Source: Psilocybe azurescens (Eukaryota > Basidiomycota > Agaricomycetes > Agaricales > Agrocybaceae). From it: 64,000 nt of DNA. A program made the translations under genes and the position numbers. Numbering within the stretch: position 1 is the first letter of the stretch; each line of letters begins with the position of its first letter. The notes beneath the pieces are model-generated. The model ran no database searches. It was not told the DNA's origin and saw only the letters and a list, made by a program, of their open reading frames with translations. The stretch covers positions 62,001 through 126,000 of the forward strand of contig JAJIRX010000159.1 of assembly GCA_023853785.1 (NCBI GenBank), in the 5' to 3' direction. Positions 1 to 39,865 of the stretch are shown one piece after another.

Positions 1-1075
1 CTCGGACACGCGTTCACGGTATGATGGCAATGACAACGGCTCCGTATATGACGACAACGACACCGGAACAAACGAGGTGGAACAAGGGAGGGGATGCGAG
101 CAGGTAATGAGGCGACATGAACGCAGCTGCGACACCAGGTAAGTCGCGAACCCCACCCACCGCCGCCACTAACTCTCCCCCCTCTTTCTCATATAGACCG
201 ATGGCATACGCATACGTACTGCACATACCGTGACACACGCAACATGTACAGTACAACAACGGTACGAAAGCTGATACAACACATAGGGACGACGACAACG
301 ACACGCAGGACACGTACCATGACACATATGACACGCACAGCGGCCACAATGACGACATGTACAACATGCATGGTGGCCACGACGATGACACACACAACAC
401 ACACGGGCGGCCACAACGATGACACACACAACACCGAGTACGACGTACAGCACCCACGACAGCCGCAAAGACAACAACAACAACATGTACGACACGCATG
501 GTGGCCACAACGACAACACGTACAACACGCACGCCACGACAACGACACACACGACACCAACATACAGCACCCATGATGGCCGCAAAGACAACGATGATGA
601 CATGTACGACACCGAGTACAACGGCCATGCATGACGGCCACAACGGACACAATGGCTGCAAGGATGACGACACGTACGGCGGATGCATACCATGCCCACG
701 ACGACGACGGCATGTATGACCGATACAACCACCCGTCCGCCACCCTTTTTAAAAAAATTTTTTCACTTTTTTTCTTTTGTTCTCTCATTTTCTTTTACAT
801 TTATGTGTTTGTTTGTTCATTTAACCCAAGTATATACCCTCCCGCCCATCTTTTTACTCTGTTATGTTTTTTATTTTTATTTTATTTTGTTACAATGGAC
901 TTTGCATGTAGATAATAATGTAGTATATAGTTATTAATATATTATATTGCACTCATGAATTTACACTAAGATTGATAGATTGAAATATTCTAGTTGGAAT
1001 CCAACTGGATTCTGTTCTATTCAAAGTTAAAGTTGGCACTCCAATTGGAGTCCACCTGGACTCTATCAGCTCTTC
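1..1075. mobile_element. Truncated non-autonomous DNA element (GGANTCC-array family), cut by the window start
   Basis: Positions 1-720 are ACGAC/ACAACG-type low-complexity DNA rich in CpG. A T-rich stretch (745-895), an AT-rich block around 915-950 and diverged GGAATCC/GGAGTCC decamers (995-1,065) follow. The same order, intron included, recurs at 43,600-44,350, and the AT-rich block plus decamers recur inverted at the left ends of the elements at 19,604 and 46,569. The expected TIR (GTACTTTACTG-like) is missing near 1,080, so this end is eroded or was lost next to the KDZ relic. All long open frames here are low-complexity and open in several frames, so I do not call them genes. Confidence 0.7.
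139..196 (+). other. Conserved GT-AG intron inside the non-autonomous element
   Basis: GTAAGT donor at 139, CTAAC branch-point-like site near 169-173, pyrimidine tract, ATATAG acceptor ending at 196. The homologous 60-bp segment at 43,714-43,773 keeps the donor, the CTAAC and the TATAG acceptor although most CpGs around it have decayed. This implies that the family is, or was, transcribed and spliced on this strand. It could be a captured gene fragment or a genuine element transcript. Confidence 0.6.
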
Positions 1076-1205: not shown

Positions 1206-1690
1206 TTGCAGTCTGTTTATAAGACAAAAGAATCTTGTACTGAATACATATGTATTGACAAAGGATGTCAAGTGTTGCAAACAGCTGTTACCAATGGAAG
1301 TTGGGATGCTATGTGGAAAAAACATCAAGATTTATTGTGGACACTTACCATTATGTATATTAATCACCAAGCCAATGATTATCTTTGTTGAAAGTACTGC
1401 AATCCTTCTCTAGGTGATGGTTCAGCTCCAAATCTTGTAATTATTGCATATGATGATAATGGCAATGCATATGCCCAGAAAACCTTTAATACACAAGTGT
1501 GTGAACAATTAAATGCATGGCTGGGTGGTTTTGAATCTATACTTAAATGTATGACACCTGGCAATTTCAACTGGTTTCTACACACAATACTATTTTACCA
1601 CACAAAATATATCATTGCAAAGCAGAAAAGAAAGGCAGAGTCTTCAGATAGTGATGATGAAAATGAAGAATTAGGATTAGATGAAGAGAC
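1206..1690 (+). pseudogene. KDZ transposase relic, C-terminal part (interrupted by the 13.8-kb element)
   Basis: The C-terminus of a fungal KDZ-superfamily transposase, recognised by a block read across frames: CTEY near 1,236, RFIVDTYHY near 1,330, NHQANDYLC near 1,362, KYCNP near 1,391, then an uninterrupted run through LNAWLGGFESILK (~1,510) and NWFLHT (~1,570) into an acidic serine-rich tail. At least two frame changes and a stop near 1,388 show decay, and the upstream catalytic part is absent. The segment contains no CpG at all from 901 to 1,690. Reading resumes in frame at 15,508 after removal of the inserted element and one target-site copy, giving the natural acidic end and stop at 15,553. 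Confidence 0.8.
1684..1690. repeat. Target-site duplication AAGAGAC (left copy)
   Basis: Direct repeat with 15,501-15,507, immediately outside both TIRs. Seven bases match. An eighth (G) could belong to it if the terminal G of the right TIR is counted as host, which would fit the 8-bp duplications known for KDZ/Zisupton elements. Confidence 0.85.
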
Positions 1691-1942
1691 CACATAGGGC
1701 AGCTACATTGTAGCGAGTGACTAGTGCCATAGAATGTACACAATGTATATGTGTGACTCGGTGCTATAGAATTCTATAGAACACACCTATAAGAAGTACG
1801 ACGATATAACATACAATGTAGTGACTCACTCGGTGCCATAGAATTCTATGGATGAGGCTAATTTAACCTGATATCAGCTGCGGTCACCGATACTGTGAAA
1901 TCGTCCCCAATATATCGGCTGCGGCCACCGACAATGTGGACG
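1691..1942 (+). repeat. Left terminal inverted repeat of the KDZ element
   Basis: It matches the reverse complement of 15,248-15,500 at close to 90% by eye. It contains two 16-bp perfect palindromes, CTATAGAATTCTATAG (1,764-1,779) and CCATAGAATTCTATGG (1,836-1,851), each preceded by GGTG, and a third half-copy (GTGCCATAGAA) near 1,724. These look like iterated transposase-binding sites. Confidence 0.9.
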
Positions 1943-2184
1943 CCGGCCCCAGACCCTTTGGTGATATGTCATACAGAACTATTTTGTATTAAATTATGAC
2001 AGTGGATAAAGTCGGCAAATACAGTACCTGAATATGATGACGCTAATGGTGCGGGCAATTCACTGGCTCAGTCCCGAGAGTTCTCAGTCCAAAGTGGATG
2101 AATTTGATTGTCGATGAAAGTTGTATTTCACGAGTAACACCAATTTTGAAATGAATTTAATGTAAATATATGAAAAATTAGAAT

Positions 2185-3283
2185 TTATTCAACTACATTT
2201 GAACAGTCGGCCAAACCATCAGCCGATAGTGCTGTTAAGTCGTTTTCAAAATTTGCAATGGCATTGAGAGCTTGGGTATCGATATCTTTTAATAATTTTC
2301 GTGACCAATCATTTGCTTTAAGCTTCTCCCACTGAGTTATGTATAGCCGATGGCAGGCATCCTTGTAAGATATACCAAGCATTTCACGTAGATAATTGAT
2401 TTCGGAATGGATTTGAAGTAGTTCTCGGTAGGTCAAATGCTAACAAAAACATATAAATTTGCCTAGAAACTATATAAACTAATGCTTACCGGATCGGCTG
2501 GGACCAGGACGCTGTCACCGAGAATGATAAATTCCAAACCTGCACTATTGCCTGACTGAAGAATTAGTAAGTAAAAGACTTTAATGATCTAAAAATGGTG
2601 AAAGGAGCAGTGGGAGGTCTGAAAAGCCGCATCATTAGTGGAAGAGCGCAGCCGACTCGACCGAGTTGTAAGCTACATCGCCCCCCGACATGTGTGACCG
2701 AAGTCAAGTAATGACGGCCCCGATGAACGGCGGCCGAATAGTTGACTACGGCCAACATCGGCCCTGATAGACATGGCCGACGGCCAAACTCGGGCAATCT
2801 CGGCTACGAGACAACGCTGACGTGGCCGATCTTCAGATTTGAATACAATCCGGTTCAGGTGATATGTGCAACCGAATCACAATAAAGGTGGCCACAAATG
2901 AGTGGTTAGTACAACCTGAATTGAGGGAAAGGTAGCCATAATATATGTTACCGACATAACATTGGAACAATGGCAGCCCCGAAATGTTCGGCCACCCAGC
3001 TCAGGTTCATTTGGCAATTCGCAAAATGAAACAATAGCACTTACTCCACCGTGTTGCTTGTCTAGTTGTAACCCTGCCCTGCGGTTCGCTGGCCATTGGG
3101 CCCTATTATCTGTCTGAAACCGTCTGGAATGCTAATTGAATGCGGTGTCTGAGTGGAATCGGCATCGGTGGGTGGTAGAGAGTCCATGTGTGGCGATTGA
3201 CTTTGTGGCTGGGGCCAAGGAACGGGTCTTGGGATGGTATAGAGTTTGGGATCAGATGATAGCGGCCCTACAATAGTGGACAT
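2185..3283 (-). CDS. KDZ-element accessory protein a (unknown function)
   Basis: A multi-exon gene with no family I recognise. The first exon, starting at ATG 3,283, is Pro/Gln/Ser-rich and hydrophilic. The last two exons are clear: one ends in DSVLVPADP, a GTAAGC...GTTAG intron of ~50 bp lies around 2,439-2,489, and then comes an 83-residue helical block with SYKDACHRLYITQWEKL and a short acidic tail ending at 2,185. The upstream exon of this pair has a good TTCTTCAG acceptor near 2,557. How it joins the first exon is unresolved: the 3,283 frame stops at ~3,064, shortly before a strong GTAAGT donor. The gene diverges from gene b, with start codons about 260 bp apart, so the two probably share a promoter region. 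An accessory role in the transposon is inferred from position only. Confidence 0.5.
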
Positions 3284-3543
3284 GCCAGATGTGTCCTGTC
3301 ATTGATCATTCATGTTTTGCTAATGCAGTAGGTAATGTCAATACGATATATTTCAAAAGATTGAAATAGATAAGGTTGCAATCAAACTTAATCTTGATTT
3401 GTGACTGTTTACATCACATGATTGTTGATTTCGCCAGCACCACAAAATTGGGAATCTTTTACAATTATCTACAACTTCATCTGCCGAGTCGCCCCCAAAC
3501 AGCGATATCCACAAGAACAGATTCTCATCAAAACTTAAATACT

Positions 3544-6011
3544 ATGTCTATCTCAATGATTATACCTTCCGCAGCCGATCTTTTGGCAACACTTCGTAAT
3601 GTCGATAACCGTATCCGGGGCGCACTGACCAATGGCGACATATCAAAAGAGATAAAGGAACTTAAGGCGCAGTTGGTGGGTAGCAAAATATTCTTATTCA
3701 TAACCTTTGACAATGAGAGAATTCAGAACGAGATATTTGCCTTGCATGCGTTGACCGGTCCCGTGGTGGCCCATCTGCAACCGGCATTCAACACCCCCAT
3801 GTTCTTCTGGGGTTTCTTGAAATTGTGGAAAGAAGTCAAGCAAGCAGGTCGTACTGTGGATTTTCTTATGAAGCATTGGCAAAATTTGGCCGCATTCAAA
3901 AACGTGGTATCAGAGCTGATATCTGCACCGGCCGTAACTGCAAAAGTACAAAGCATCGTCGCAAACAATCTTGTTGCAACACAAGCCGCAGCAGAATCTA
4001 ACCAACTTGTCGAAATCCAACAGCATCCATCAGGTGTTGAGAGTACAAGGCGTATTCGACGTCGGCCAACACGGTACCGATCGAGGTCGGCCGATGAAGA
4101 CATTGCGATCGGGAAGCGCGTCGAGGAGGCCAGCATGGCCAATACAACAGATTTGTACGTGCTACCGAAAGGATTGGCCTCAAAGGTGAGAGAGCCGCAG
4201 ACCCGTGTACGGCAGGTATCACATAATCGGCGCCGTCAAGTTTCACGACAGCGGGACCGAAGACTCGGGGCCGACACGAGCGAACATCAAAGACGAGAAT
4301 CGAGTGCAGAAAGTGACGCACCTCGTGCACCATCTCCCATGGACCAGTCTGAACTGAATGACGACGCTGAAGGGCTGCCCTATACTTGTACCCAGAACGT
4401 TGAACAATGCATCGTGTGATCGGTGCCGCAAGGCAAACGTAGATTGTTACGATCGAGCTAACGGGCGTGGAGCGTGTTGGCGGTGTAGTAAATTCAAAGT
4501 GAAGTGCAGTTTCGGACCAGGAGGACACCTACAGCAGGAAAAAATCAAATCATCGACTACAAAAAGAAAGTTGAAATCAAGGCTGATTGTCGAGTCCAGC
4601 GATGAATTATCAGCTGAACAGCTAGAAGACGATGACAGTGACGAAGAAATACATGCATCCGACCGAAGACCGGTTGTAACACAGCAAGTGGGCGAATCAT
4701 CGCGGCCGAGCCGTAATCGGACACTGACATCAAGTTGGCCCCGATATATGAAATTGGCCATAGCCGATGAGGATCACGCTCTGCGCCTTTTGGCAGTAGA
4801 AAAGGGAAAGTCTTGTGGTAATTTTTTTATGTTTACCTATTCCTTAAGGGATGTTAACTTTATCATTTATTGTTAGAAACGCGAGGCCGACGACGCCGAT
4901 GCCGACTTAGGTGCCCGTGTGGACACCGTCGAATCGACCCTTGTTACGGTTGCAGCCGACACGTCAATGGCTCTATCCATGGCATACAACTGTAACGAGT
5001 CATGCCATCAGTTAGAGCAGGCATCAGCTCATGGACCAAATGCCAGCCTCGGCCACCTAGCGTCACTCGGTTGGAAGGCAAAATGGACGACATTCTGGAA
5101 AATTTCAAAGCGTTTAGAAGGGCAATACACTGACATTGCTGAAATACTTGAACATTTACGTGCCAATGTCATCCTGAACTCAGCAAGGCAGCTTCCAATG
5201 GACATCGGGACCGAAAGTTTGTCGGCTGAGATAGCTCCCATTCCTCTAGAGCGTATTACGCCGGTCAGCATACCGACATCGGCCCCAATTGTTCAGTGCA
5301 CTGCCACCAGTCTGAATTCGGGCCCGATAGCAATGTCGGCTGATAGTATATCGGCAACTTTGCCGACATCGGTCCCGAATTCTGAAGGCAATGCCACCAG
5401 TTCGCTCTCGGGGCCGATTATGTCTGTGACTGAGAGTGCAGTGTCAGCACCACTCATTGATTCCTCGGCAGCCAACCTCAATGTGATGGCTGATATTCAA
5501 GTAGGCGATGATGCTGCCATGCAGGAAAGTATAGCAGGCTCGTCGGTTTGTAAATGTATCACTCCGGCAGTGCAATTAATTCCCCCAACACCAAATAATT
5601 CACAGGAGCAAGCCGCATATGACACAACCATTATCGTCGCAGCAACACCTCAAGACGTATTGCATGCGCCAACAGGTCCTTCTCCTGCTGTTACGACCAT
5701 TGCTGATCAATCCTCGTCTCAGGAACTCAAGCATACATCCGGATATAATACATCACCGATGTCAGGGCCAATCGATGTCGGCTCCGACATTCCACAGGTG
5801 TCCGTTTCTTCAATCCATCTCCTAGCATCGACATCACTTCTTGGCGCCTCCATCATTACCAGAATATGAACAACCTTCACCACGTCGATCACCACGCCTC
5901 TTATCACCCGTCCGATCTCAATCAGTGTCCCGTAGTCCAATACCAGGCAAATGTCGTCTCAATGATATGTCGGCCGACGAGGGGAAAAGGAAGAAACATC
6001 ATCAAGACTAA
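3544..6011 (+). CDS. KDZ-element accessory protein b: Zn2Cys6-like DNA-binding protein
   Basis: I chose ATG 3,544, since the open frame upstream lacks a convincing earlier start. The order is a helical N-terminal region (to ~3,990) and an Arg/Ser-rich linker (~4,040-4,330). Six cysteines follow with spacing C-x2-C-x6-C-x9-C-x2-C-x6-C (~4,412-4,510), which matches a GAL4-type Zn(II)2Cys6 cluster with a slightly long loop. A LIVESSDE stretch (~4,583) resembles a SUMO-interacting motif followed by an acidic run. After a likely intron (about 4,819-4,876) come a Ser/Pro-rich segment and an RS-rich basic end (GKRKKHH) with stop at 6,009-6,011. Frame changes near 4,390 and 5,840 are not explained by good introns and may be indels. 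DNA binding is a family-based inference. CGG palindromes across the element are plausible targets. Confidence 0.6.
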
Positions 6012-6198
6012 TTTTATACAATTCATATACCATTCCAAGTACTTATGTATATATTTCATTCTTGGACATATAGCAGTCCTAATTTTGTGAATATGAATTC
6101 AATCATGTATTCTGAAAATGAGACAATCAGGGCCGACTATTTATATCGCGAACTTTGTTGAACAGTAGGTATTGTTGGTAGTAAAGTCGATGATGATT

Positions 6199-8338
6199 CT
6201 ACGTTGGTGATTTGTCTTTTGATCTCTCTTTACTGTTTTTTGAGTAAGTTGTTGATGTAGACGGCCCCACTGGTACTGCATTTCCTTCTGTCAGCTCCAC
6301 AGTCGGTTTCGGTGTCAGTGATGCTCTGGGAGTTGGCATAGTTGGAGCAAGTAGCCGAGGATCAATGGTATAATTATTGGGCAAATTGATTGGCGGTGAA
6401 ACTGCAATCTCATTCTCATATCTTTTTCTTTCCACATACTGTGCATATTGGGTTGAATCCACCGGGAAAAGTGGCATACCATCGGCTGGGCCGTTAACTG
6501 GCAATGGGTGTTCAACATCAGAACGACATATGGATTCCATAATGTCTTGGGTAACATATATGTGGCTTGGCATCCGTGTAGTACTGTATGCTGGCTCCTC
6601 AATTTGAGTTCCTGACAAGATCGGCCGATGTGTATGAACCATCGGGGCCGATGGTATAGCGTGATTCATAGATATCAGCTGGGTGGCACCAGCTGTCGGT
6701 GCCGATAATACATTTGGTGTCTTGTGTGGGTGATCCGCAAGTGCTGTATCCTGGATGATAAAAGGTCGATCGGTAGGTTGATTTTCTTCCTCACCCATTT
6801 GGATAAGATTTGTTCTCGCATTTGTACGTTTATATTTTCTTTTGCGTCGACCAAGATCGGCCTCAACTTCATCAGGATATTTTGTTGCCCCCAGTCCATC
6901 TTTGCGCTTCATAGATTGAAATCGAAACATATCTTTGGGTTGATATAACTGTTGTCTGTTTACCAAATGACTGAAAAATGCTTGTATGTCCTCTTTATGA
7001 AGATTCCGAGGGTTCGTGAATTTCATGTTGTGGGGCAAATATTTTGGATCAATGAATGTGGCCTGAGCATTTGATATATTGGTGTATGGAACTTTATCAG
7101 ATATTCCTCCCATTCCAAGTTCTGCACCTTCATTGAGACATGTCAGGCTAAAATAGGTAATTAAAGTGCTTACGGTAATGATAATTAACATACAAACTGA
7201 ACGCCTCTTCCCAGTCTGCCTTCGTCCAATTTTTGTCCTGCAATGGGATCGGCAAGATTGGGAAACCGTCCGAAGTTTTCCCGAGAGTAAATATGGACTT
7301 CTTCTCTGTTGCTCGGTTCACAGTGAATGCTAGGTGTGGGTTTTTCTTGAGATTTTGCAAGCCGGTCATATAATCCAGTATGTTTTGTTTCATTTGATCG
7401 ACATCGGCCTGATATGTACTCATAAAAGAAGGACCTGGAACACCCATTAAGTGTGCAATTTGTTCATATCTAAGGTTTGTAATTAGTTGTGTGCACTGAT
7501 TTTTGTCATACCGGCCGAATGATAATATCGGCCCTGGCGTATTACCATGAGGTCGATTAATATTAATGTCGGGCCGGAAACATATTATGTCAGGGCCGAC
7601 TGATATTCGACCAATTAGAAAACACTTACCCATCGACCGCTATCTTTCCATCGGCCATTGGAAAGCAGACAAAGATGATACTTGTCATCCCCATTTCTTT
7701 ATAATGGTCTTTCATTGTTTGATCAATCCTTCTGACGTGGAATTTTTCGCCAAACTTAGATATAATTGTTTAGCTTAGACGTTGAAGTGGTGCTAAATCA
7801 CCGACCTTGCCTGTGTGTGTTCATCATAGCCTTGCATCCCGCATGTTTCTACCTCCTCATCAATAGCCTTGCGTTCCTCATCCGTCATGCTGGTCCAAAC
7901 GTTTTTCATAGCCGTTGTCCTGTGGCCGAACCAACCAAATGTGTTGGCCGAAGCGGTATCAATTCCCATAATGCTGGCTATTTCCGCCCAAATCTTCGGC
8001 TGATGATTATGCCATAGAATATCAGGTTGCTTAGGACAAAAGTGGTTGGATTTTCATGCAATCCCTCATTCTGCCCACCAATTGTTTGAGCACCAGGTAA
8101 TGATTTCCTGCGCTACGTTAGGTATACACTCTGTAAATTTGATTATATATGGCCTTACTTGTGTCCACCGTCGACTCTCAGTGTCATCCTTTGCCCGCTT
8201 ACCTTGACTGGCCCAATAATTGAATATTGCCACCAATATGTGATTTGTCAAGATCAAGAGACGTTCTTTCACTGTCCTAGCTTTCACAAAAGTCTCTTTG
8301 AAAGGCAAGATATGTTGGAGTTCATCTGCACTGAACAT
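6199..8338 (-). CDS. KDZ-element accessory protein c (unknown function)
   Basis: The start is ATG at 8,338, about 250 bp from the divergent transposase start. Exons recognisable in order: 8,338-~8,066 (ARTVKERLLIL block), ~8,010-7,790 (WAEIASIMGIDTASANTFGW, then TDEERKAIDEE), ~7,720-7,632 (MKDHYKEMG, FPMADGKIAVDG, followed by a GTAAGT donor), ~7,600-7,195 (YEQIAHLMGVPGP, NPHLAFTVNR, FPILPIP, NWTKADWEEAF), then a GTATGT...TTTTAG intron (~46 bp) and a long final exon to 6,199. The final exon has a basic GRRKRKYKR patch near 6,845 and a Pro/Thr-rich tail. The layout is like uncharacterised ORFs that accompany fungal DNA transposons, but I cannot assign a biochemical role. The basic patch suggests a nuclear protein. 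Confidence 0.55.
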
Positions 8339-8587
8339 CTTTGGCTTGCGTTTTCTTATTTTGTAATATGATTGGTGTTGCCATGTTGCTATATGAAGTT
8401 ATCGTTCAATATCAGAGAAGGAATGACATGGCGAAGTGGGGATGATCAAGAATCAAATAACGCTTTGCAGACTCGGAGCAGTGACAATAAACCTCATGTA
8501 AACCTCATGTTCCTTAGTTTGGACTGAGCATCACGTTCAACACATGTGTTTTGTATTCTCTGTGTTTCACACTCTCTGCTTTCAACC
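8339..8587. promoter_or_regulatory. Shared divergent promoter region between gene c and the KDZ transposase
   Basis: A 249-bp spacer between two divergent ATGs. It is CT-rich near the transposase start. No clear TATA box was found. Co-regulation of the two genes is inferred from geometry. Confidence 0.4.
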
Positions 8588-11500
8588 ATGAACTCATCCA
8601 GTGGGCCAGCACACAAAAGGCAAAGGAAGTCAAAACACCTGGTTCAAGGAAGTGTTGAGGCCACTCAGGCAGTTACACACCTCTCCAATGTCTTCAGTGG
8701 TCCCAGAAACCAGCGACAAGTTCTAGTTCCGCTAGTGACAACTGTTACGGAAGATGGCACATCAAATGACCCAACTAATCCCAAAGAACATGAGGCCACC
8801 CAAGGTATTTACAATGACAGTGGAGTATTCTCAGATCATTTTGAAATACCCCGCAAAAAGAAAAGCAAGGTAATTGGTTAGCATGTGGGTGATTAAAATG
8901 CTCAAACAAATCTTGACAGACACAGCAAGAATATATGAGGGAATGGGTCGACCGAGTAGAGGACCTCCTTCAAGCATCACTGATTTGGGAGACTTGGCCA
9001 CCTGACAACCAGCATTGCAGAGCCTATTCAACACATTCCTGGGCTATATGGAGATGCATTGATTGCACATTGGGAGAGCCAATCTGCCGCAAATACATGC
9101 GACATTCACACCAGGTTGCACCTTTTCATAGAATTGAATGCTGGGCAGAGACACATTTCCGGCCGAGCCGAAGTTATGGGAAGTCGGCTGTTATATTTTT
9201 GTCCCTCATCGTTCCGGACAGGCCATATGCAACTCACTTGAGTTCCAAATCACCTATTTGGAATCCCTTCAGGAACATTCAGACCAACGAGAACAGGAGG
9301 CATTAGACAAAGGACAGAGTCGGCCAATTTGCGGCTGACTAAGATATCTGGATCGGCTGATGTGTTGGCCACGCAGCAATCGGCCTACGATGGATCAAGT
9401 ACTATGTACGAGGACAGTTCGAAGAGCGGCACAAATCCCCTGCATTTCTTAAATGAATGCTGCGCAAGCCAGGACATAGAGGGTGACAGTATTGGCCGTG
9501 AACAAGCAGCTGAGGACAACGACGGAGACGATCCAGAGACCGACGTGAGAAGGTTTTGGTCACTATTTAGGTCTAGATGACCATGGTTGTGGTATGGGTG
9601 TTGAAGAGTCAGCAAATGAGGATGTCGATGTCAGCTATCAGCATGCAAACGACACACAATCAACTCAACCAAGTGCACCAGTCGCAGATGGTTTAAACAA
9701 CACATACGTGCAAATTTTACATACCAACGGTATTCATCACATGGCTATGGTCACATGCTATTGCCGAGGGGAACACTCGGTCCCGATGGACTTGGTTGCT
9801 TGTCAGCTCCTTCCAGCTAGCTTTACCAAAATACGAACACTATTTTCTGTTCAACTTATGGATCATTTTCGCTCTTTGTAACCTGGAGTTGAAGGCATCC
9901 GCATATCAATTTTATCAACTGATTCGCAGAATGACGACGCCGATCGGCCGGACCAAAATCGTCAATGTTTACCATGAATTCTGCCGCATGTCTCAACTAT
10001 GGAGATGGCTCAAGAAATTGACATGGGCCGGGTATGGCCACAAAGCTGAAGATCCCAAGGACCCACCATATGCAACATTATCCTTATATTGCCCGACATG
10101 CCCTCAACCTGGAATAAACTTGCCCACCAATTGGAAGGATGATCCAAATCGGTTAGTATATTACACAAATTATAGAATTCAAAAGCTGATCTACCTTGCA
10201 CGCAGTACCATATATAAACATATTTTTGTGGCCGACGGAAATTTCAAAGCCGACCATGTTTGGCAAAAGTGCAATGATGATATCTGGTTAATTGACGGAG
10301 CTGGGATGGCGCCCGAACTCCAATGATTATCAACAATTTTTAGCGTCCTGCGATTGAACGATTAACGGTATGTGCAGGTCGGGGCCGATTTTTGGCCGTG
10401 TCTGATGTAGACATTTCCAGAAAGCACCTTGTGAAAACACTTTCAAAGCCATTACAAATGCATTACTGGCGACAAAAGCATGTGATAGGACAGGGAAAGT
10501 TGCTTTCGCATGTGCTCAGCATGGTTGCTTTGTGCCGAATTCCTTGGCCGACATGTTCCGAGGCGAACAGCAAAAAATATTGACTATGCATTACTGCAGG
10601 CAATAAAATCAACACATGTTGAACCTGAACAAGGCCTACTTCTCATCTATGATATTGTCTGCGCATTGATTGTTCATGTGTTCGACCGAATCGGCCATTT
10701 GCTTCCAGCCGGCCTCATTATTGATAAAGCTATTGATCTATTTCATGTTCATGGCCACAAAGACGTCTGTTTCTTTCGTTTTGCATTGACATTCATTCCT
10801 GGTGCAGCAATAGTGGCCAGACAGATTCTTGAATCACTCTGGTCGAATCTCAATGCAATCTCAACTTCGGTCCGGACAGCAAGTCTGGCACACCGGGAAG
10901 AAGTGCTCGACGATCACGCAACTGATTCTAATTACAAAAAATGCTCGGAATGACAAAGGTTCTCTCCACTAAATACATGGATGCAATCGTCATGGTTGGC
11001 CGGGCAGATGCGTACTTCCTTGAAATGTCAGGAGATATTGCACAGGCAACACTGAATGAATGGGAGGACAAAATTCAAAGTGTTGAAGCAATGTGGCTGG
11101 CCGACATTCAAAGAATGGACATTCTACGGTGCCCGTGTGCCCGATACAATGACCGACAATATGGCCGACATAGTTGGCACCGAGGACGGCACCAACAATG
11201 CTGTTTGGACTTGGCTTCGGTTGGCCTTATTAATCAAAGAAAAGCAGTAAGCTATTTTGTATTTACATATTTCCATTATTTAATTGCATTTTTCAGAATT
11301 GATGTACAGAACAAAGTACGCCGGCTCGGCTCAGTACCACATGAACAAGACCAACAAGTAGTGAAGCAACTTTGTGAAGTCCTGACTTCAATGATTGCAG
11401 AACTCAAATTGCAACAACAGATGTCTGAAGTGGCAGATGTTATGGGTCGAATGCACCACATGCAGTTTGGTAATGAAACCGAATTTGATGACATTGGTGA

Positions 11501-12407
11501 AGAAGATCCTAATGTCCAAAGTGGACCAGCTGTTCAGCAGGACGCAAATGATGACCCCAAGTCTGTTCACGGCCAGCGGGTCCCAACTATTCTGTTTGTT
11601 GAATGCCAGATTCTTCCGTTGCCATCCAATTTCAATGTCCCTGAAGAATACGCTCCTTTGGAGTTGGAATTGAGAAAACAACAAGCCCATAATCAAATCA
11701 CACGCATTCGTGATGTCGTGGCCAATATTTCATTTTTATATCGATATGTCATTGGGAAAGGCAGCCACACCAGCATCCGTTCCAATGGCCAAAAAGAGTA
11801 AAATTACTGAGTTACAATAAAGTTTTGCAGGCTCGCATTTACTCAACCTGTCAGTCCCGACTTGTTGCACTGGATTGTGATAGAGAATTTCTAGATACAT
11901 TCCGCGAACTCACTCGGAATGATTTAAAGGCCAGCACTGTAATTTGGAAACCTAATTTGACGGGATCGACTACTATGGAGTTGTCGTGGATATGGGGGAC
12001 CGGCCGTCAATATTTATTCGGGGTCGGGGCCAATGCCGATATCGATTGGCCAATCGGGCCCGACTTGACACAATTTCATCGGGAATGTACGTGGTATACT
12101 ATTGTCACAAAATAAAATGCCTCTCTTATAAATAACATAGTTAATAGAGTCCATTGGCTTCGCGCACAAGCTCAAAAAAATAGGTGGCATGAAGAAGTTA
12201 TCCTGGTTATTTATGAAATGCAATGGACGGTCAAATATTTTGTTCATCGCGAGAGAAGAGTGGGCCAACGCAACTAACATGGAGGGTGTGCATGCGGGTC
12301 CAAAAGCTTACACTCATCGGCAAAGTACTATGTGGAATAAATATGCATTGGTGGCTGATGCTGCATTTAAAAATAGTTCACAGCATTATGTATCGCCTCT
12401 CGTGTGA
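8588..12407 (+). CDS. KDZ transposase with CxC2-like cysteine cluster (frame-damaged)
   Basis: Cut-and-paste transposase of the KDZ superfamily. ATG 8,588 opens a basic N-terminus (KRQRKSK). Intron 1 is 8,870-8,919. Blocks in order: CxC2-like cluster (WRCIDC, PICRKY, PFHRIE; ~9,060-9,150), LHTNGIHHMAM (~9,720), CPTCPQPGINLP (~10,090), VADGNFKADHV (~10,230), HGCFVPN (~10,525), LLLIYDIVC (~10,635), HVHGHKDVCFFRF (~10,750), ARQILESLW (~10,815) and the C-terminal RWHEEVILVIYEMQWTV (~12,180) to the stop at 12,407. These are the family's hallmark motifs in the expected order and length. Damage: a frame change near 10,305, an in-frame stop at ~10,354 just before a plausible intron (10,368-10,420), and a one-base loss in an A6 run (10,572-10,577). 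The usual GE pair before the last motif reads RQ here. The gene is nearly intact, so errors of assembly are possible. Confidence 0.85.
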
Positions 12408-12473
12408 TTATGTAATTTAATGTTCCAATCAAATTGATTATCTATGTAGATCACTCCTTGGAGACAATCCAAT

Positions 12474-15026
12474 ATGTCTAACACAGAAATCTCAGTCTTC
12501 AACCTGCTCACCACATTGGCCAGGAGCAAGCATCAATCGGATATCGATATACAAGCACTTGTGTACTATGCCAAGTCCAGATTTCGGGCGCACTCCTCGC
12601 TATTTCTGTGTCAACAAAAGAACAACAAGGGTGGAAACAACACTTTTTATTTACTGAAGTGGTCAGTAACGGATGTATCTGATGAAAAATATAGCTGATT
12701 TACTCGATGTGTAGGAAGTGATTTTATATTTTGTTGGCCAGGCGTCTGCCCTCGGTCTCCCGATCACCATTCCCATTATTCTTCGGTCGTTGTCGGCGTC
12801 CACTCTTGGCCTCCGACTCGGACATTTTCCCCTTAAATTATCATATGATTTTTGTCAGCTATTGGATGCCGGCATAGATAAAGACAGTCCAGTTCGGCTG
12901 GTGGAAAAATACCTTAACAATTGGTGGAATGGTGACGACGAGGTAGACCTGAAGTATGCACTGAATGGCTTTCTAATTCAGGAAGCTTTGAAAGTTCATG
13001 CAAGCAATGAATTGCGTGAAATCATGACCGACAAGTTACCTGACGTACTGGCCGACTCGGTACCGAATCAGCGATCCACTGATTCGGTCCCAACTTATCA
13101 TCCACCCGACTCGGTCCCGACTCATCATCCACCCGACTCGGTCTCGATTCATCATCCGCCCGACTCAGTCCCGATTCATCATCCGCCCGACTCAGTCCCG
13201 ATTCATCATCCACCCGACTCGGTCCCGACTCATCATCCACCCGACTCGGTCTCGATTCATCATCCGCCCGACTCAGTCCCGATTCATCATCCGCCCAACT
13301 CAGTCCCGATTCATCATCCACCCGACTCAGTCCCGATTCATCATCCGCCCGACTCAGTCCCGATTCATCATCCGCCCAACTCAGTCCCGATTCATCATCC
13401 ACCCGACTCAGTCCCGATTCATCATCCGCCCGACTCAGTCCCGACTCATCACCCGCCCGACTCGGTCCAGCTTGTATGTCCACAATGTAAAAAATATCTG
13501 AATCTTGCCTTTGGCCTCAGGGACAAGCTCCTGGCTCTTTCGACTACCGCTCAAGCAGCACATACCCATGCCGAAGCTGACTATGAATTAAGCATGCGCC
13601 GAGCAGCCGGTTATCATCAACTCCATGAAGCTGTGATCTTGAAGGAACAACACACAGGTGCTCCAATACCAACCGACAACGTAAACGGCCAAGCGATCGG
13701 CATCGGGCCCGCATAGGCCAGCCACTGCATCAGCTTATCCTGAAACCATCGATGATGTGTTGATCACTGGACGGTCGCGCAGTATGGCTATGAATGTGGC
13801 TAATCAACTATCAGATCTCAAGTCGCTCCCGATCTCGTCGCAGAAATGGACATGGGGGCCGAACTTACGCGAGATTGATCTTCACGCACTAGCAGATTAT
13901 CCGACAACTGGCAAAGTTCCTCACTCAGGTTACGTTGACTCTCTTCCCGACGGTCGTTTGTATCAACGAGAGTCATCTCCAGATCCTGTTCATCCAACCA
14001 GATCGTCCGTTCCGTCGACTGTCGGGGCCGATTCTGAGGACTTCGGATGTCGTTCGCTCGGTGCCTGATATCATCTCTCCATTGTCCACAGTTCGCACTA
14101 CGACATGGCGGTCAGCAGACACTCTTGCGCGTGACCGTCAACTCTCTCACTCAGCTTCTGGTTTCATTGACGGTTCATTTTCGGGGCCAATTGCAAACTG
14201 TCCTCCGGTCGGCACTGAGGATCAATCGGCCCCGCTCTCGGCTTTTCTCTCCACAGCTGCAGAAGCAGCTGCAGCATGGAATTCCTCCTCAGATGAAGAT
14301 GAAGATGAAGACAATAATATTGCTTCTGCTGAAGTTTTACCTACCGATGAGGCGACAACAAATCAAGGCTTGTCCTTAGCAGCGCAGTGGCCGAACTCTG
14401 GTTGCGGGAGTCATCCGCGGAAGTTTCCTTTGCTTCCCCACAACACACTGTTGGCACTACAGCTGCTGACCTTGCAGTTGCCTGGGCCATATCTTCCGAT
14501 GAAGATCTCGCTTTGGATGTGGCCGGTCCCGACTCGGTTTCGTCAGCTGAGGCCGATGACCATAATTTACTTGAGCAAAATCAATGTATCTCGGAAATAG
14601 TTGATGCTACCGATGCAGCGGCAGTGTGGTCCGACTCCTCAGACAGCAGTGCCGATGATGGATCGGGCCCGCCGGCTGATCTACCAAATTCATTCATTCT
14701 TCCCATCCCTATTCCTCCTCCAGCTGGCCCAGCCGAACTCACTGCAGTATGGTATTCTTCAGACGAAGACCGATCTTCTCTTTCCAACTCTGCCCCTCAA
14801 TCTGATGGGCACCTCTCTCCAGCCGACTCTTCAATGAGTACAGCTCTTGTACATATGGCCGTTGACTCTGTTACTCCATCTCGTATTACCCTTCCCTCGA
14901 CCCTTTACCCCGACTTTTTTTGATTTTGTTGATGATACCTGGCTGCCAGCCGAGGAAGATATCAGGGATTCCAACAATGAACAGCAGGCTGCAGATACTG
15001 ATGATGCTGAGGAGTTTGTTTTATAA
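12474..15026 (+). CDS. KDZ-element accessory protein e: DSVP-repeat and acidic-repeat protein
   Basis: It follows the transposase in the same orientation. The N-terminal part (ATG 12,474, then ~12,718-13,070) is globular and unfamiliar, and the exon join between them is unresolved. Next come 14 copies of a nine-residue unit (D/N)SVPxHHPP (13,081-13,458), a CPQC pair, a helical segment to ~13,716, and a C-terminal half with four W-x-SSDED-like acidic repeats (~14,275, 14,485, 14,625, 14,745) plus a weaker one at 14,945, ending AEEFVL at 15,026. Several frame switches occur (about 13,715, 14,390 and the T7 run 14,915-14,921), so it is either multi-exon or damaged. Acidic aromatic repeats resemble activation or interaction regions, which is inference only. 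Confidence 0.5.
13081..13458 (+). repeat. 27-bp coding minisatellite, 14 units (DSVPxHHPP)
   Basis: Exactly 14 x 27 bp = 378 bp, in frame with gene e. Units are variants of GACTCGGTCCCGATTCATCA plus TCCGCCC. The Asp-Ser-Val-Pro codons coincide with the palindrome TCGGTCCCGA in two units (13,111; 13,219), and many others carry the one-base variant TCAGTCCCGA. Blocks of several units repeat as higher-order groups, showing recent unequal exchange. Confidence 0.95.
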
Positions 15027-15247
15027 GTGATTTGATAGTACCGTTCCTTGTCTGAATTGTTTATTTGAATTTCATTTATATTTAAACATTCGCCGAAGCC
15101 GAAGTTTACCTACCTGCCAGCTGAAGTTTTATAAGTATGATTTTTGCATCAAATTATATTTATAAGACTGTAAATTATATTGTATATCAGCAAAATGTGA
15201 TCCTGAGCTGAATACAAAATTTGACGTGGCCAATTTATATGGCACCG

Positions 15248-15500
15248 AGTCCACGCTGTCGGTGGCTGCAGCCGATATATTTGGGGCCACGTTCGGAACA
15301 TCGGTGACCGCAGCCGATATCAGGTCAAATTGCTCTCATGCATAGAATTCTATGGCACCAAGTGGGTCGCTACATTGTATGTTATATCATCCTACTTCCT
15401 ATAGGTGTGTTCTATAGAATTCTATAGCACCAAGTCACACGCATACATTGTGTAAGTTCTATGGCACGAGTCACTCGCTACAATGTAGCTGCCCTATGTG
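15248..15500 (-). repeat. Right terminal inverted repeat of the KDZ element
   Basis: Reverse complement of 1,691-1,942. The palindromic boxes are kept at about 15,341-15,355 (the first arm lacks one base of the left copy) and 15,412-15,427. It ends GCCCTATGTG at 15,500. Confidence 0.9.
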
Positions 15501-15507
15501 AAGAGAC
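15501..15507. repeat. Target-site duplication AAGAGAC (right copy)
   Basis: Partner of 1,684-1,690. Removing the element plus one copy restores an open KDZ reading frame. Confidence 0.85.
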
Positions 15508-19129: not shown

Positions 19130-19780
19130 TGACTGGGGGATAACGAATGAGACATTGTGTTCATTTGGGATTGGGGGAAAAGGTATCCGGAGTAACTAGT
19201 GTTAAGGGAGTATGTGGAATCCAATCCATTTCAGATATGTCTCTTATAGACCACAGAAATCAAGTGCTCTCTAAGTCGGTACAAGGCAATGGATAAATCA
19301 CATTTGGAGCTGCGTAGAGCCAGAGATATCTTCTCACCACTGCTCCAGATATCTTTTTCTGATGTTCTAAACCGAAGGATATACAAGATATCTGGTGTTG
19401 GTGGCGTCGATTCTATCGTAACAATCAGATTAATCTATTTGGTAACCCACCTTTCCCGTGATGCAACCCGGGTTGCTACATTCATAATTATCTTTTGGGC
19501 TTCAGTGTCCTACTCGCACTGCCGTGTAGCCGTGTTGCCATTGAATCTGCCATTTTATGAGTCAGCTAACATCTGTACAAGTCACCCCTTCGTATAATCA
19601 TGACAGTACTTTTACCATCCCCCACACAGTCCATATGGACTCCAGTGGACTCCAGTGGACTCCACTGGACTTGCCTATATACTGAGTGTAAAAGGTAAAC
19701 AGAGTCCAGTGGACTCCAGTGGATTCCACTGCACTTTAGTAGATCTTATACTATACATTGAATATGGACTAAAATAACTG

Positions 19781-19880
19781 TAGTCCACTGGAGTCCACTG
19801 GAGTCCACTGGAGTCCACTGGAGTCCACTGGAGTCCACTGGAGTCCACTGGAGTCCACTGGAGTCCACTGGAGTCCACTG
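19781..19880 (+). repeat. Ten perfect-phase copies of GAGTCCACTG
   Basis: Strict 10-bp tandem (only the first copy starts TAG). The unit contains the near-palindrome GGAGTCC. More copies in both orientations lie at 19,629-19,671, 21,688-21,738 and 21,788-22,011. Confidence 0.98.
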
Positions 19881-20049
19881 GACTTGACACAGTAAATAAA
19901 TTCAATCTTAACATAAATTCAGATTAGTGGAATAAAGTATATTAATAACTATTTAATACATTACTACATATCTACATGTGAGGGCCAAGACAAAAGGAAG
20001 AAAAAGATAATAAAATAAAAAAATAAAAAAGGGGGAGCAGGAGCAGTAC

Positions 20050-21360
20050 TTTACCATCGACGTGTCGTCCGTCGGGTCGTCCGTCGGGTCATCGGTACCG
20101 CGTCTGTATCCATCGCTGTTGCAGCCGCCGTACCCGTCCTTGTCGCTGTTGCAGCCGCCGTCCAGCGTCCCTCGTCCCTCGTCCTCGTCCCTGCCGTCCG
20201 CGTCGGTCCTCGTCCCTGTCGCAGCCGCCGTCCGCATCCGCATCCTCATCCCTGCCGTCCCCGTCCCTGTCGTCCACGTCCCTGTCGTCCCCGTCCCTGT
20301 CGTCCCCGTCCGTCCCCGTCCCCGTCCCCGTCCCCGTCCCTGTCGTCCCCGTCCGTCCTCGTCGCTGTCGCTCGTCCGGCTGTCGTCGTCCCTGCCGTCC
20401 GCGTCGGTCCTCGTCCCTGTTGCAGCCGCCGTCCGGCGTCCGCTGTCGTCGTCCCTGTCGTCCCCGTCCCTGTCGCATCCGCTGTCGCCGTCTCTGTCGC
20501 GTCCACGTCCGGCTGTCGTCGTCCCCGCCGTCCGCTGTCGTCTCCCTGCCGTCCGGCGTCGTCGTCCCCCCGCCGTCCACGTCGTCGTCCCGCCGTCGTC
20601 CCTGCCGTCCACGTCGTCGTCCCGCCGTCCCGTCTCGTCCCCGCCGTCCGGCGTCTTCGTCCCCGCCGTCCGCGTTGTCGTCCCCGCCGTCCGGCGTTGT
20701 CGTCCCTGCCGTCCAGCGTTGTCGTCGTCCCTGCCGTCCAGCGTCGGTCCTCGTCCCTGTCGCAGCCGCCCGTCCGGCGTCCGGCGTCGTCGTCCCTGTC
20801 GTCCCCGTCCCTGTTGCAGCCGCCGTCCGCGTCCGCTGTCGTCGTCCCTGTCGTCCCCGTCCCTGTCGCATCCGGCGTCGTCGTCTCTGTCGCGTCCACG
20901 TCCGCGTCGTCGTCCCCGCCGTCGTCCCTGCCGTCCACGTCGTCGTCCCCGCCGTCCACGTCGTCGTCCCCGCCGTCCGCGTCTTCGTCCCCGCCGTCCG
21001 GCGTTGTCGTCCCCCGCCGTCCGGCGTTGTCGTCCCTGCCGTCCGGCGTTGTCGTCGTCCCTGCCGTCCGCGTACGTCGTCGTCCCTGTCGCAGCCGCCG
21101 TCCCCGTCCGGCGTTGTCGTCCCTGTCGTCCAGCGTCCCCGTCCGCTGTCGTCGTCCCTGTCGTCCCCGTCCGTCGTCGTCCCTGTCGCGTCCACGTCCA
21201 CGTCGTTGTCGTCGTCGCTGTCGCGTCCTCGTCCCTGTCAGCGTCCACGTCCGGCGTCGCTCCTCGTCCTCGTCCCTGCCGTCCGGCGTCCGTCGTCGTC
21301 CCTGTCGCAGCCGCCCGTCCGCTCGTCGTCCCTCGTCCTCGTCCTCGGTCGTCAACCTCT
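20050..21360. repeat. CpG-rich GTCGTCC/GTCCCCGTC minisatellite
   Basis: 1.3 kb of short units built from GTCGTCC, CCTGTCGTCC and CCGTCCGGCGTC. It lacks stop codons in several frames on both strands, hence apparent ORFs of over 400 codons in each direction (Arg/Asp/Gly/Thr-rich on minus, Ser/Pro/Arg/Val-rich on plus). That is expected from composition and is not evidence of a protein. The 5' part of the minus frame (21,548-21,360) is more complex and shares a PPPPPRRSEP-DSQPDATE block with the element at 46,569. Confidence 0.9.
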
Positions 21361-34962: not shown

Positions 34963-35035
34963 AAGGCCTGTCATGGATCGGCAAAAACCGGTTGATATCC
35001 GTGACCGTTTGTTAAATATAACCGCGGTTATCTAT

Positions 35036-35116
35036 AATATAAGAGACGGTCTATATCTATCTATATCTATATCTATAATTCTATAATATATAATTCTATA
35101 ATATAAGAGACGGTTT
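35036..35116 (+). repeat. TATATC/TAATTCTA simple repeats
   Basis: CTATAT and ATTCTATAATATA units. Flanked on both sides by AGAGACGGT (35,040; 35,106), as if a short segment had been duplicated. Confidence 0.8.
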
Positions 35117-36655
35117 TTCTAAAAAGGAAGTACGATGACTAAGGATTTCGGAAAAGGAAATTTCAAATTACTTAATCATGACAAAGCACACTGCTGTGTT
35201 TTAGGGCCTCCGCTGCAGCGCCTTTTGAAACAAACAATCTGTGGCTAATGGCAAACAACAAGATTGGTGGCACAACATGTCTATGAGCCATATCCTGGGT
35301 GGCTTTGAAAACAAAAAATATGTACACAGGGCACCAGGGAAATAAATCAATAAATCCACAATAAAGACTATTTCAATGGCATTTCTGTCTACAGATATTG
35401 TGTTTGTTTGCCACCTGTATAACAACTATATACAGTAGAAAAATTGAAATGAAACCCCTGAATAAATCTGCAAACAAGTGGTATTGTGGACTGTGGAAAA
35501 TTAATATGGAATGAACTATGTGTTGGTGACCATGTTTTCTCTGAGTGAGAGGTATTAAATAAAAATGTACATAGAGAGATAGCAGTAGGATATGATTTTG
35601 GAATTAGAAATAAGCAATCTGCAGTATTGTAACCATTTTTTAAAGATGAAGCTCCAGTGTGGTTTAGCCATGTAAATATAAGTATACTTTTAACTATTGG
35701 GTGAGTGAATTTTTAAAATGGCACAGTGCTGTAGGTGCTGTACATATCAAGACATGGTTGGATAGTCAACAAGTAGTGCAGTGATATATAAAATATAGGG
35801 TGGCAGAGGCAATGATTGATGAGTGCTTGAGAGTGGGTAGACCAACAAAGTGGTGGAGGGGGGAATGGATTGATAGATATGAATTGCAAGTGGTAACAAA
35901 AATGAGCTGAGTGTTGGAACTGTTGTTTGAATAGTGTTGGTGATATAGACAGTGTAAGCTATGCAATTTAAAATGGCACAGCGCCATAGGTGCTGTGCAT
36001 ATGAGGTGATTAGTGAATAGTCAATGAGTAGTGGAGTATTGTATAAAATATAAAGTAGAATAATAATTGGTTGAGAATGGACATGGACAGGGATGTAGAT
36101 ATTAAAATAGATGTGTGGCAAAAGTGCTGTGGATAAATATTTGTGTATTTGTTCACTATTTATATAAGAACAAAAATGTTGACTGTTATTTGACTTTGAG
36201 TATATATAATTTGACTATAGAGGTGTGGTGTGGCTTTATAGTAGAGTGCAAGAGTGCAAGCCCAGCAAGCTGTTAGGCTAACTGTGAGGCAGGGTGATGA
36301 GTGCAGCTCATCCCCTCTGAGGCATTATATATATGAGTATGTTGGAATCTGGGAATCAAACAGCTCTATTCCCATGATTCTGTGCTCTGAATGTGCCACC
36401 ACAAGTATGTAATTGAGAATTCAAATTGAATTCTCCATTACAGAAATTTAGTTAGCATAAAATGTATTTACATTATTGTATGCTACACATTTACCTCCAA
36501 TCTCACAGTTTTTATCTGTTTGCTTTGGTCTTTTCAATAGAGCACCAATATTATTTATTTTTTCAATGAGGAAGTGTAAAGCACTGACAAACAGGGGGAT
36601 GGCTCATCCCCCATGTGTTATATGAGTGGGGAATGTTATTTATTTATCAATGAGG
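35117..36655. other. AT-rich, CpG-poor repeat-derived DNA without a supported gene
   Basis: Very few CpGs and many TG/CA steps. ATGGCACAGYGCYRTAGGTGCTGT recurs at ~35,718 and ~35,972, so part of it is an internal ~250-bp direct duplication. Nothing codes convincingly. Confidence 0.5.
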
Positions 36656-36689
36656 AGGTGCAGGGCACCCGACAAAGCGAAGTCTGGGG

Positions 36690-36706
36690 GCTGCGCCCCC
36701 ACTCAA
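36690..36706 (+). other. GC hairpin TGGGGGC-tgc-GCCCCCA
   Basis: Perfect 7-bp stem with a 3-nt loop, inside a short GC-rich island (36,660-36,775) in otherwise AT-rich DNA. Typical of mobile GC-cluster sequences. Confidence 0.6.
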
Positions 36707-36903
36707 GCTATTGACCCTGCCGTGAAGCACAGGGGGTGAGCAAAGCAAATCCCCCTGACGCGTAGCGGCAGGTCATAAAGCTCATATTTAACAAACTGCA
36801 GTTAACTGCGGTTTGCCGGTTTTGACAAAGCATAATAAGTTATATTTGGGAATATATTAAAACTCCAACATCAATCGATGACAGCCTGTGGATTCATTGC
36901 CTC

Positions 36904-36934
36904 AGATAACGAGGCAAGCTCTGCCTCGTTATCT
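36904..36934 (+). other. 13-bp perfect hairpin (AGATAACGAGGCA / TGCCTCGTTATCT)
   Basis: 13-bp arms around a 5-nt loop, 22 nt before ATG 36,957. Could be an RNA hairpin in a 5' leader or a transposon-end structure. No CTRR end typical of Helitrons follows directly. Confidence 0.6.
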
Positions 36935-36956
36935 CTTTTCTCCTACCCCTTCATTA

Positions 36957-37161
36957 TGGCACCAAGAGGCCGCAAACAGGCTGTAAACATCTTCCCAACC
37001 CAACCTGCACCACCTCAAACTCCTATCCGGCCTCTAGTCAGGTTTGCAGCTCCACCTTCACCTGGGGAGGAATTTGCAGATGTATGTATCACCTGGCTCC
37101 AGTGATGAGGAGGTACAGTTTGGTCTGGGGAATGTTCCCATTATCACATCACCCATTAAGT
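36957..37161 (+). pseudogene. N-terminal fragment of an unidentified (probably transposon) protein
   Basis: ATG 36,957 encodes MAPRGRKQAVNIFPTQ and a Pro-rich, basic-then-acidic stretch. A one-base frame change near 37,082 leads into VSPGSSDEEVQFGLGN and a stop at ~37,161. No known domain. The Tc1 element inserted 55 bp further on. Confidence 0.35.
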
Positions 37162-37215
37162 GACAACACAATGCACCAACTATCAATCATCAGTCAGATA
37201 TGCAGGTTTGGAATA

Positions 37216-37427
37216 CAGTAGCTCAAAAAACCGTCCCAATATTTGGCACTTTCTCACTAATTGTTTAATAACTTGGGAAATAAATTATGTAAAAGTCTGA
37301 AAATATTATATGGTATAGTTTAACATGTGACTAACATATTTCTCACCAAGGTCACATAATTTTAACAAAAACTGATTAAGTAATGGAATTTACAAAATAA
37401 TAAAACATTAGGACAGTTTTTTGACCC
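37216..37427 (+). repeat. Left TIR of the Tc1/mariner element
   Basis: Inverted partner 38,608-38,819. CAGTAGCTCAAAAAACCGTC at the tip. Confidence 0.95.
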
Positions 37428-38603: not shown

Positions 38604-38607
38604 ATAG

Positions 38608-38819: not shown

Positions 38820-38821
38820 TA

Positions 38822-39862: not shown

Positions 39863-39865
39863 TCA

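Follow-up and report, generated by a model that had tools for sequence, protein, structure and literature searches.

A fixed-spacer palindrome along a zinc-cluster-encoding KDZ transposon of Psilocybe azurescens: a candidate self-recognition system

Introduction

Why is a fungal transposon filled, reading frames included, with one short palindrome? The question was raised by a stretch of 64,000 nucleotides from Psilocybe azurescens (hereafter the window), in which the interval 1691-15500 is a KDZ superfamily DNA transposon, as its transposase domain, terminal inverted repeats (TIRs) and target-site duplication show. The element encodes a zinc-cluster protein in a gene termed gene b, and it carries the palindrome TCGGNNCCGA many times. 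An initial annotation of the window noted this motif and proposed, after the VANDAL elements of plants and their VANC proteins, that it might serve self-recognition or anti-silencing. KDZ elements and TET/JBP are said to have been described in 2014. On balance we lean slightly to the reading that this KDZ transposon has accumulated the predicted binding site of its own zinc-cluster protein along the whole element, with an address coded in the spacer between the half-sites and a VANC-like function as the likeliest use.

Results

Enrichment of the palindrome in the window element

All 13 positions listed for TCGGNNCCGA by the initial annotation were correct, and two further sites (5,778 and 6,696) brought the total to 15, compared with none in the other 50,190 bases of the window. 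The counts given for GGCCGA plus TCGGCC, 45 inside the element and 14 outside, were reproduced as well. The GC content was 45.6% inside the element and 45.2% outside. In Markov simulations of the element (200 runs per order), the mean number of TCGGNNCCGA was 0.10, 0.31, 0.93 and 1.65 at orders 1, 2, 3 and 4 respectively, and the highest count in any run was 5, against the 15 seen. When a 27-bp minisatellite was masked, 12 sites were left versus 0.73 expected from half-site counts. Sequences one CpG transition away from the motif numbered 21 inside the element (some of them in the minisatellite) and 2 outside, and eight transversion controls of the motif gave 3 inside and 3 outside.

The sites had been described as lying in coding and non-coding DNA. 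They occurred in both, but in the window copy they were mostly coding, 14 of 15 falling inside open reading frames (ORFs) of at least 90 amino acids; the corresponding numbers were 17 of 21, 23 of 31 and 16 of 19 in C454, C529 and C714, three further copies from the genome. Codons were then shuffled synonymously within each ORF, with protein and codon use kept (1000 shuffles per element; ORFs were picked by length without overlap, and some may not be real genes). The shuffles gave means of 3.7, 1.2, 2.5 and 2.1 for the window, C454, C529 and C714, against 14, 17, 23 and 16 observed, and the observed count was reached by none of the 1000 shuffles in each of the four elements. The enrichment of TCGGNNCCGA is a DNA-level feature, and composition, encoded protein and codon use do not explain the sites.

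A single spacing and a constant half-site

All 256 four-base palindromes were scanned at 21 spacings, and all 64 triplet palindromes at 31 spacings. TCGG-N2-CCGA, with half-sites two bases apart, was the top dyad in the window element, C454, C529 and C714, where it was seen 12, 16, 31 and 19 times versus 0.73, 0.84, 1.39 and 1.07 expected (minisatellites masked in the first two), and other spacings of the same dyad occurred 0-4 times. The consensus derived from 78 sites was RTCGGSSCCGAY, with little base preference beyond one flanking base, and most sites are therefore not copies of a longer repeat. The exceptions were the 27-bp minisatellite of the window and 21-bp steps in C33 and C529, two members of family F2 (see below).

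Gene b elements across the genome

The genome searched (70.4 Mb) contained 14 elements with gene b including that of the window; some were cut by contig ends, and C683, C634, C323 and C447 may include flanking DNA. Thirteen of them carried 15-31 TCGGNNCCGA. The exception, C19 (contig stretch L028, 10 kb), held 2 in 9.9 kb and was a CpG-decayed copy with an observed/expected (o/e) CpG ratio of 0.53; this copy is 90% identical to the window element and forms a natural decayed control. Family F1 consisted of the window element, C19 and C454 (76-90% identity within the family), and F3 of C714 and C323 (99%). The core of F2 was formed by C33, C529, C92 and C274, mutually 99% identical, and C447, C792, C152, C634 and C683 were added by TIR or gene b match. 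Identity between the three families was 60-66%. Since copies of the same family are not independent, the independent evidence amounts to three families, with C454 as a partly independent fourth lineage. C311 (10 N2 sites versus 1.1 expected) was dropped as a fourth family, its zinc cluster being F3-like by eye. In this way, TCGGNNCCGA was found to mark KDZ elements with gene b as a class, in three diverged families.

The motif had been called confined to the element, which held for the window and not for the genome. TCGG-Nk-CCGA occurred 437, 1296 and 700 times genome-wide for k = 1, 2 and 3, and its reversed-pattern controls 574, 654 and 643 times. The flanks of nine elements (85,158 bases, of which 50,190 were the window's) had no TCGGNNCCGA, and lone sites were present elsewhere in the genome, for example on C28 and C32. 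Genome-wide counts of the bare core are swamped by background, as CGG-Nk-CCG gave 10357, 9546 and 6611 (k = 2, 3 and 4), below the 10984, 11323 and 9658 of reversed-pattern controls. C202, a deletion derivative, held no site in 2.3 kb; this zero is not informative, as the left end of the window element, to which C202 corresponds, is likewise free of sites.

A three-base spacing in a KDZ family with another zinc cluster

C547 and C438 were picked as KDZ elements without gene b and count as one family, since about 97.5% identity was found over their 6.3 kb of matching sequence. A motif density in KDZ elements lacking gene b equal to that in elements with it would have refuted the proposal of the initial annotation; this comparison, run in part, gave no TCGGNNCCGA in C547 (16.5 kb), C438 (8 kb), C38 (4.5 kb) or C250 (4.5 kb). 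The zinc cluster encoded by C547 and C438 is CX2CX6CX12CX2CX6C, with a central loop of CX12 versus CX9 in gene b. Each of the N3-type contigs C547 (L026/L034/L035), C644, C438 and C643 gave zinc-cluster gene matches at two places some 7-9 kb from each other, the second match being diverged.

In 8 kb of C547, the dyad scan placed GCGG-N2-GCCG first (13 versus 0.44 expected), a pattern that contains CGG-N3-CCG. Around the C547 element, 16.5 kb contained 52 copies of the latter (3.4 expected) and 7 of CGG-N2-CCG; for C438, 8 kb contained 15 (0.66 expected) and none with N2. These counts equal o/e ratios of 15.2 and 22.8 for N3 and of 2.0 and 0 for N2. Conversely, CGG-N2-CCG reached 6.6-16.2 times expectation in the 14 gene b elements, and N3 1.3-3.0 times. 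The top triplet palindrome was CGG-N3-CCG in C547 and C438, and CGG-N2-CCG in the window element, C454, C529 and C714. The N3 sites of C547 used all three reading frames (12, 17 and 14), and 43 of them lay in ORFs, whereas 500 synonymous shuffles gave 6.9 on average and never more than 14. C38 and C250, with more distant KDZ transposases, had neither N2 nor N3 spacing in the 4.5 kb of each, and no zinc cluster was found by pattern search of these pieces. The 3 kb of C911, with 3 N3 sites against 0.36 expected and a single TCGGNNCCGA, were too short to judge. The change of the spacer from 2 to 3 bp together with a different zinc cluster, which the initial annotation had not anticipated, is the strongest pointer from the motif to a putative CGG-binding protein.

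Conservation of sites between families

Nine aligned elements yielded 66 site positions, 48 of them confined to a single family and 18 common to two or more. The whole site was kept in 30 of 81 gap-free between-family comparisons, which were counted in both directions so that each pair enters twice. Any 10-mer judged at the same eight positions was kept in 4062 of 56925 cases, and control windows with two CpGs in 24 of 284 and 4 of 127. Position by position, identity reached 0.74-0.88 within the half-sites, against 0.54 and 0.67 at the two spacer bases and 0.43-0.64 in flanking DNA. Because motifs may attract the aligner, stricter settings with gap-free flanks of 20-30 bases were also used.

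Half-sites outside palindromes were kept whole between families in 138 of 339 (TCGG) and 128 of 405 cases (CCGA), followed by ACGT with 27%. Under three stricter settings TCGG (43-44%) and CCGA (29-32%) were first and second of the 16 NCGN tetramers, CCGA being closely followed by ACGT (28-29%, level with it in one setting) and by CCGG (22-28%). As far as these alignments indicate, the two motif halves are the best kept NCGN tetramers between families, CCGA narrowly so and once tied with ACGT.

Gene b and its zinc cluster

The six-cysteine pattern built of two CX2CX6C units was present in 8 of the 14 gene b stretches, covering F1, F2 and F3, and no uninterrupted one-frame cluster was present in the other six (C454, C529, C92, C447, C683 and C634). 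The cluster is conserved, with 24-25 of 32 residues identical between families; the main gene b matches of F1 and F3 to the F2 protein had 35-39% identity, and the N-terminal region of the window copy was 36% identical to that of C33 (tblastn). Pfam Zn_clus (PF00172) matched the gene b cluster with 21.9 bits (cut-off 21) at profile positions 2-15 of 39 only. This match aligns with the second half of the cluster, which is therefore where the basic stretch lies. Four other zinc-cluster proteins tested, from C33, C547 and two Psilocybe proteins, gave no Zn_clus match at E 0.01. A sequence search of solved structures returned one chance-level match only (E 8.6).

Only one outside protein had E <0.001; it is listed as hypothetical in Psilocybe cyanescens and shares 70% identity with the C33 version. 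Both the N-terminal region and the C-terminal part of gene b were aligned to the P. cyanescens protein P0001. Compared by eye with F2 gene b, P0001 had many differences from arginine to cysteine, tryptophan, glutamine or histidine, which look like what CpG decay of arginine codons would give.

Organization of the element and its surroundings

The features of the element are listed in Table 1. The KDZ transposase catalytic domain was recognized by PF18758 (E 1.2e-20, 74.6 bits versus a cut-off of 26.6) in a Pfam scan that covered ten ORFs of the element, the first 18 kb having 41 stop-to-stop ORFs; in the same scan, the gene c ORFs gave no domain above cut-off. Target-site duplications of 7 bp were seen by eye in the flanks of every element for which both ends were available (five of five), and the window TIR had at least 40 matches in its own genome, including the window's own two.

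Table 1. Features of the window KDZ element (window coordinates)
Feature	Position	Strand	Remarks
Left target-site duplication AAGAGAC	1684..1690	.	identical 7-mer at 15501-15507
Left TIR	1691..1910	+	220 nt, 88% complementary to 15281-15500
Span of 25 CGG-N2-CCG core sites	2715..14671	.	2.9 expected; N3 spacing 5
Gene b, first part (ORF), N-terminal region	3370..4419	+	likely start ATG 3543; site 4265 inside
Span of 15 TCGGNNCCGA sites	4265..14031	.	4265, 5205, 5318, 5369, 5408, 5778, 6642, 6696, 9777, 10379, 12054, 13057, 13111, 13219, 14022
Gene b, zinc-cluster exon	4358..4876	+	six cysteines CX2CX6CX9CX2CX6C at 4415-4507
Gene b, C-terminal part	4877..5869	+	coiled-coil-like stretch then Ser-rich tail (labels by eye); sites 5205, 5318, 5369, 5408, 5778
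Gene c ORFs 6199-7317, 7148-7639, 8066-8398	6199..8398	-	sites 6642, 6696 inside
KDZ transposase, several ORFs	8528..12115	+	KDZ domain within 10489-10953; sites 9777, 12054 inside; 10379 between ORFs
Weak CxC2 match in KDZ transposase	9697-10326	+	E 0.018, below cut-off
Gene e ORFs	12715..14923	+	sites 13057, 13111, 13219, 14022 inside
27-bp minisatellite, in gene e ORF region	12998-13521		holds 13057, 13111, 13219
Right TIR	15281..15500	-	partner of 1691..1910
Right target-site duplication AAGAGAC	15501..15507	.	partner of 1684..1690

Around the element, a 44-nt inverted repeat (84%) at window 913-956 and 19923-19966 flanks it at a distance, and given this repeat the KDZ element may sit inside an older one. 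An array of the 10-bp unit ACTGGAGTCC, with an inverted array adjoining, occupies window 19614-19896. GC-rich peaks with strong AT skew were located at 20001-21000 (71%, 179 CpG per kb) and 47001-48000 (64%, 117 CpG per kb). The block 35001-47000 was CpG-starved (1-13 CpG per kb) and looks like old, long-methylated repeat DNA. Beside the C33 element (L005 48-3176), a gene with CHAT-like and tetratricopeptide-like repeat features (labels by eye) was found in almost CpG-free DNA.

Discussion

A constant half-site, a clade-fixed spacer and sites across exons would be the trace expected of a dimeric zinc-cluster protein with an element-wide target. In the mechanism that we favour, the gene b protein would bind, along the whole element, inverted CGG half-sites set a constant 2 bp apart, presumably as a dimer, so that the spacing of the half-sites would become the address. 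The gene b families would read CGG-N2-CCG, and the other KDZ family, with its different zinc cluster, CGG-N3-CCG. Dense sites would thereby mark the element's own copies, including their reading frames, and the likeliest use would be VANC-like, with many bound dimers keeping the chromatin of the element open and its genes expressed. What is known of zinc clusters, together with the match of cluster type to spacer, leads from the motif to gene b, and the anti-silencing role is suggested by analogy with VANC (PMC5735166, PMC10398659). The excess of inverted CGG repeats lends indirect support to a binding of CGG half-sites. We hold it to be an even question whether KDZ elements evolved such a spacer-coded self-address, in which 2 or 3 bp tells the clades apart, independently of the plant VANDALs and with sites written by point mutation into their own coding sequence.

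The system resembles GAL4-type Zn2Cys6 proteins in its six-cysteine cluster, in inverted CGG half-sites and in a predicted specificity set by spacer length. TCGG-N6-CCGA is the target of the Zn2Cys6 factors Ppr1 and UaY. The present system departs from the GAL4 type by its short spacers (2 or 3 bp), by a basic stretch located in the second half of the cluster, and by targets that fill a transposon, not promoters.

VANDAL elements, as presented in PMC5735166, are DNA transposons with an extra gene for a sequence-specific protein and a short motif that is dense in the element and sporadic elsewhere. The same combination of element-encoded protein and motif distribution was found here, although VANDALs are plant elements and the present one is a fungal KDZ. 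VANC21 motifs are found chiefly in tandem repeats of non-coding DNA, in a single orientation, and were missing from the coding probes examined (PMC5735166), whereas the sites here are palindromes, mostly in ORFs and mostly outside tandem repeats; only the 27-bp and 21-bp repeats place them in tandem steps. Related VANDAL families of Arabidopsis use different motifs, as if protein and motif coevolve (PMC5735166, PMC10398659); here the half-site is constant and the spacer changes instead. VANC binding and methylation loss have been established experimentally (PMC5735166, PMC10398659), whereas the system described here is known from sequence alone.

Among KDZ elements, Cryptococcus KDZ1-3 have TIRs of at least 139 bp, lengths of about 9-14 kb and target duplications of 8 bp (KDZ1) or 4-8 bp (KDZ2-3) (PMC12810828), and the window element is like them in its transposase, TIRs, size and short target duplications. 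Dileera (PMC12730594) is a TET-encoding KDZ, whereas Pfam found no TET/JBP domain in the ten ORFs of the window element that were scanned. The covered parts of these two papers mention no zinc-cluster gene with an element-wide motif for Cryptococcus KDZ1-3 or Dileera; the word zinc appears once in those of PMC12810828, for CxC1, and not in those of PMC12730594. A search of open-licence literature (titles and abstract openings), which left most subscription papers outside, found no description of such a KDZ gene.

Several results weigh against the proposed role of gene b. Its zinc cluster is atypical, with Pfam fitting the second half only and none of the four other proteins, and the AlphaFold model of the zinc-cluster region was poor, with a mean predicted local distance difference test score (pLDDT) of 59. 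Five of the six gene b stretches without an uninterrupted cluster hold 21-31 sites, and C683 holds 20; sites in these copies could have been kept through action in trans, or the decay could be recent. Strict gap-free flanks left 15-17 comparisons with 4 sites kept whole, and the dip in identity at the spacer mostly vanished. The N3 side consists of one family. The N2 and N3 families are set apart by their transposase as well as by their zinc cluster, so that which protein reads the motif cannot be told from covariation alone.

The decay of CpGs also speaks against protection. CpG transitions made up 28-67% of the differences in five sister-copy comparisons (C529-C33 40/80; C529-C92 21/76; C529-C274 43/133; C33-C92 39/93; C714-C323 105/157), and 54% of the 407 window CpGs with an aligned position in C19 correspond to TG or CA in that copy. 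By this pattern the gene b copies evidently meet CpG mutation pressure, presumably from methylation, and they are therefore not generally protected. KDZ stretches without TCGGNNCCGA were equally CpG-rich (o/e 1.00 in C250 and 0.94 in C38), so CpG content gives no support for protection either. A shielding of element CpGs from methylation-driven mutation was set aside as unsupported by the sister-copy decay. Motif CpGs had decayed in 12/608 cases versus 212/4885 for other CpGs in F2 (P 0.004), 45/116 versus 710/1476 in F1 (P 0.05) and 7/64 versus 80/1062 in F3 (no deficit). For single half-sites the decay was 59/2085 in F2 (P 0.003), 240/638 in F1 (P 9e-6) and 19/382 in F3 (P 0.1). These counts include both directions of change and reuse the same reference copies, which makes the P values too optimistic. 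Decay at motif CpGs appears somewhat reduced in F2, weakly reduced in F1 and not reduced in F3. The idea of self-recognition or anti-silencing put forward by the initial annotation is thus borne out in part: the motif marks the class of KDZ elements with gene b, is a DNA-level feature and has a spacer that tracks cluster type, but CpG decay gives no sign of general protection.

The main rival, which we regard as unlikely, is that the KDZ transposase, with its own zinc-binding N-terminal domain, or the transposition complex reads the motif, and that internal sites gather or align the 14-kb element for excision. N2 and N3 families also have different transposases: the KDZ core of C547 is 41-53% identical to those of 13 of the 14 gene b elements (C792 was not listed), so that spacing covaries with the transposase no less than with the zinc cluster. 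C38 (32%) and C250 (36%) are KDZ elements without the motif in the pieces seen, and a weak CxC2 match, below cut-off, lies within the transposase. However, CGG half-sites with varying spacers are the usual targets of Zn2Cys6 proteins (PMC3334620), and the sites are spread over the element, not placed near its ends.

Slightly less probable again is a gene b protein that acts as a self-regulator (a repressor, a copy-number control or an activator) and not in anti-silencing, with the many sites titrating or amplifying its action. Zinc-cluster proteins are mostly transcription factors, and the CpG decay of copies fits copies that end up silent, but what regulation requires is sites close to promoters, not dozens spread through exons in all three frames. 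Very improbable and already contradicted is an origin of the palindromes by chance or as a side effect of CpG-rich composition, Ser/Pro-rich peptide repeats or repeat-unit duplication: some sites do lie in SGPT/SVP peptide repeats, in the 27-bp minisatellite and in the 21-bp steps of C33 and C529, and the motif holds two CpGs while neighbouring DNA can be CpG-poor, but the synonymous shuffles rule out the peptide repeats, and the Markov controls, the single spacing with little base preference beyond one flanking base, and the CpG-rich KDZ stretches without sites (C250 and C38 as above, and C547 with an o/e of 0.95) rule out composition.

If binding of the element-wide motif by the gene b protein is true, sequence-specific self-recognition by transposons would not be restricted to plants, and would have arisen in a second kingdom, a second transposon superfamily and a second protein family. 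The families would offer a natural case in which the spacer, altered by one base, changes along with the zinc cluster, so that protein-DNA coevolution would be testable with a pair of small domains and short DNA probes. Coding DNA would have been bent to carry dozens of non-coding sites, and it would become testable how fungal transposons in which no TET enzyme was found meet DNA methylation.

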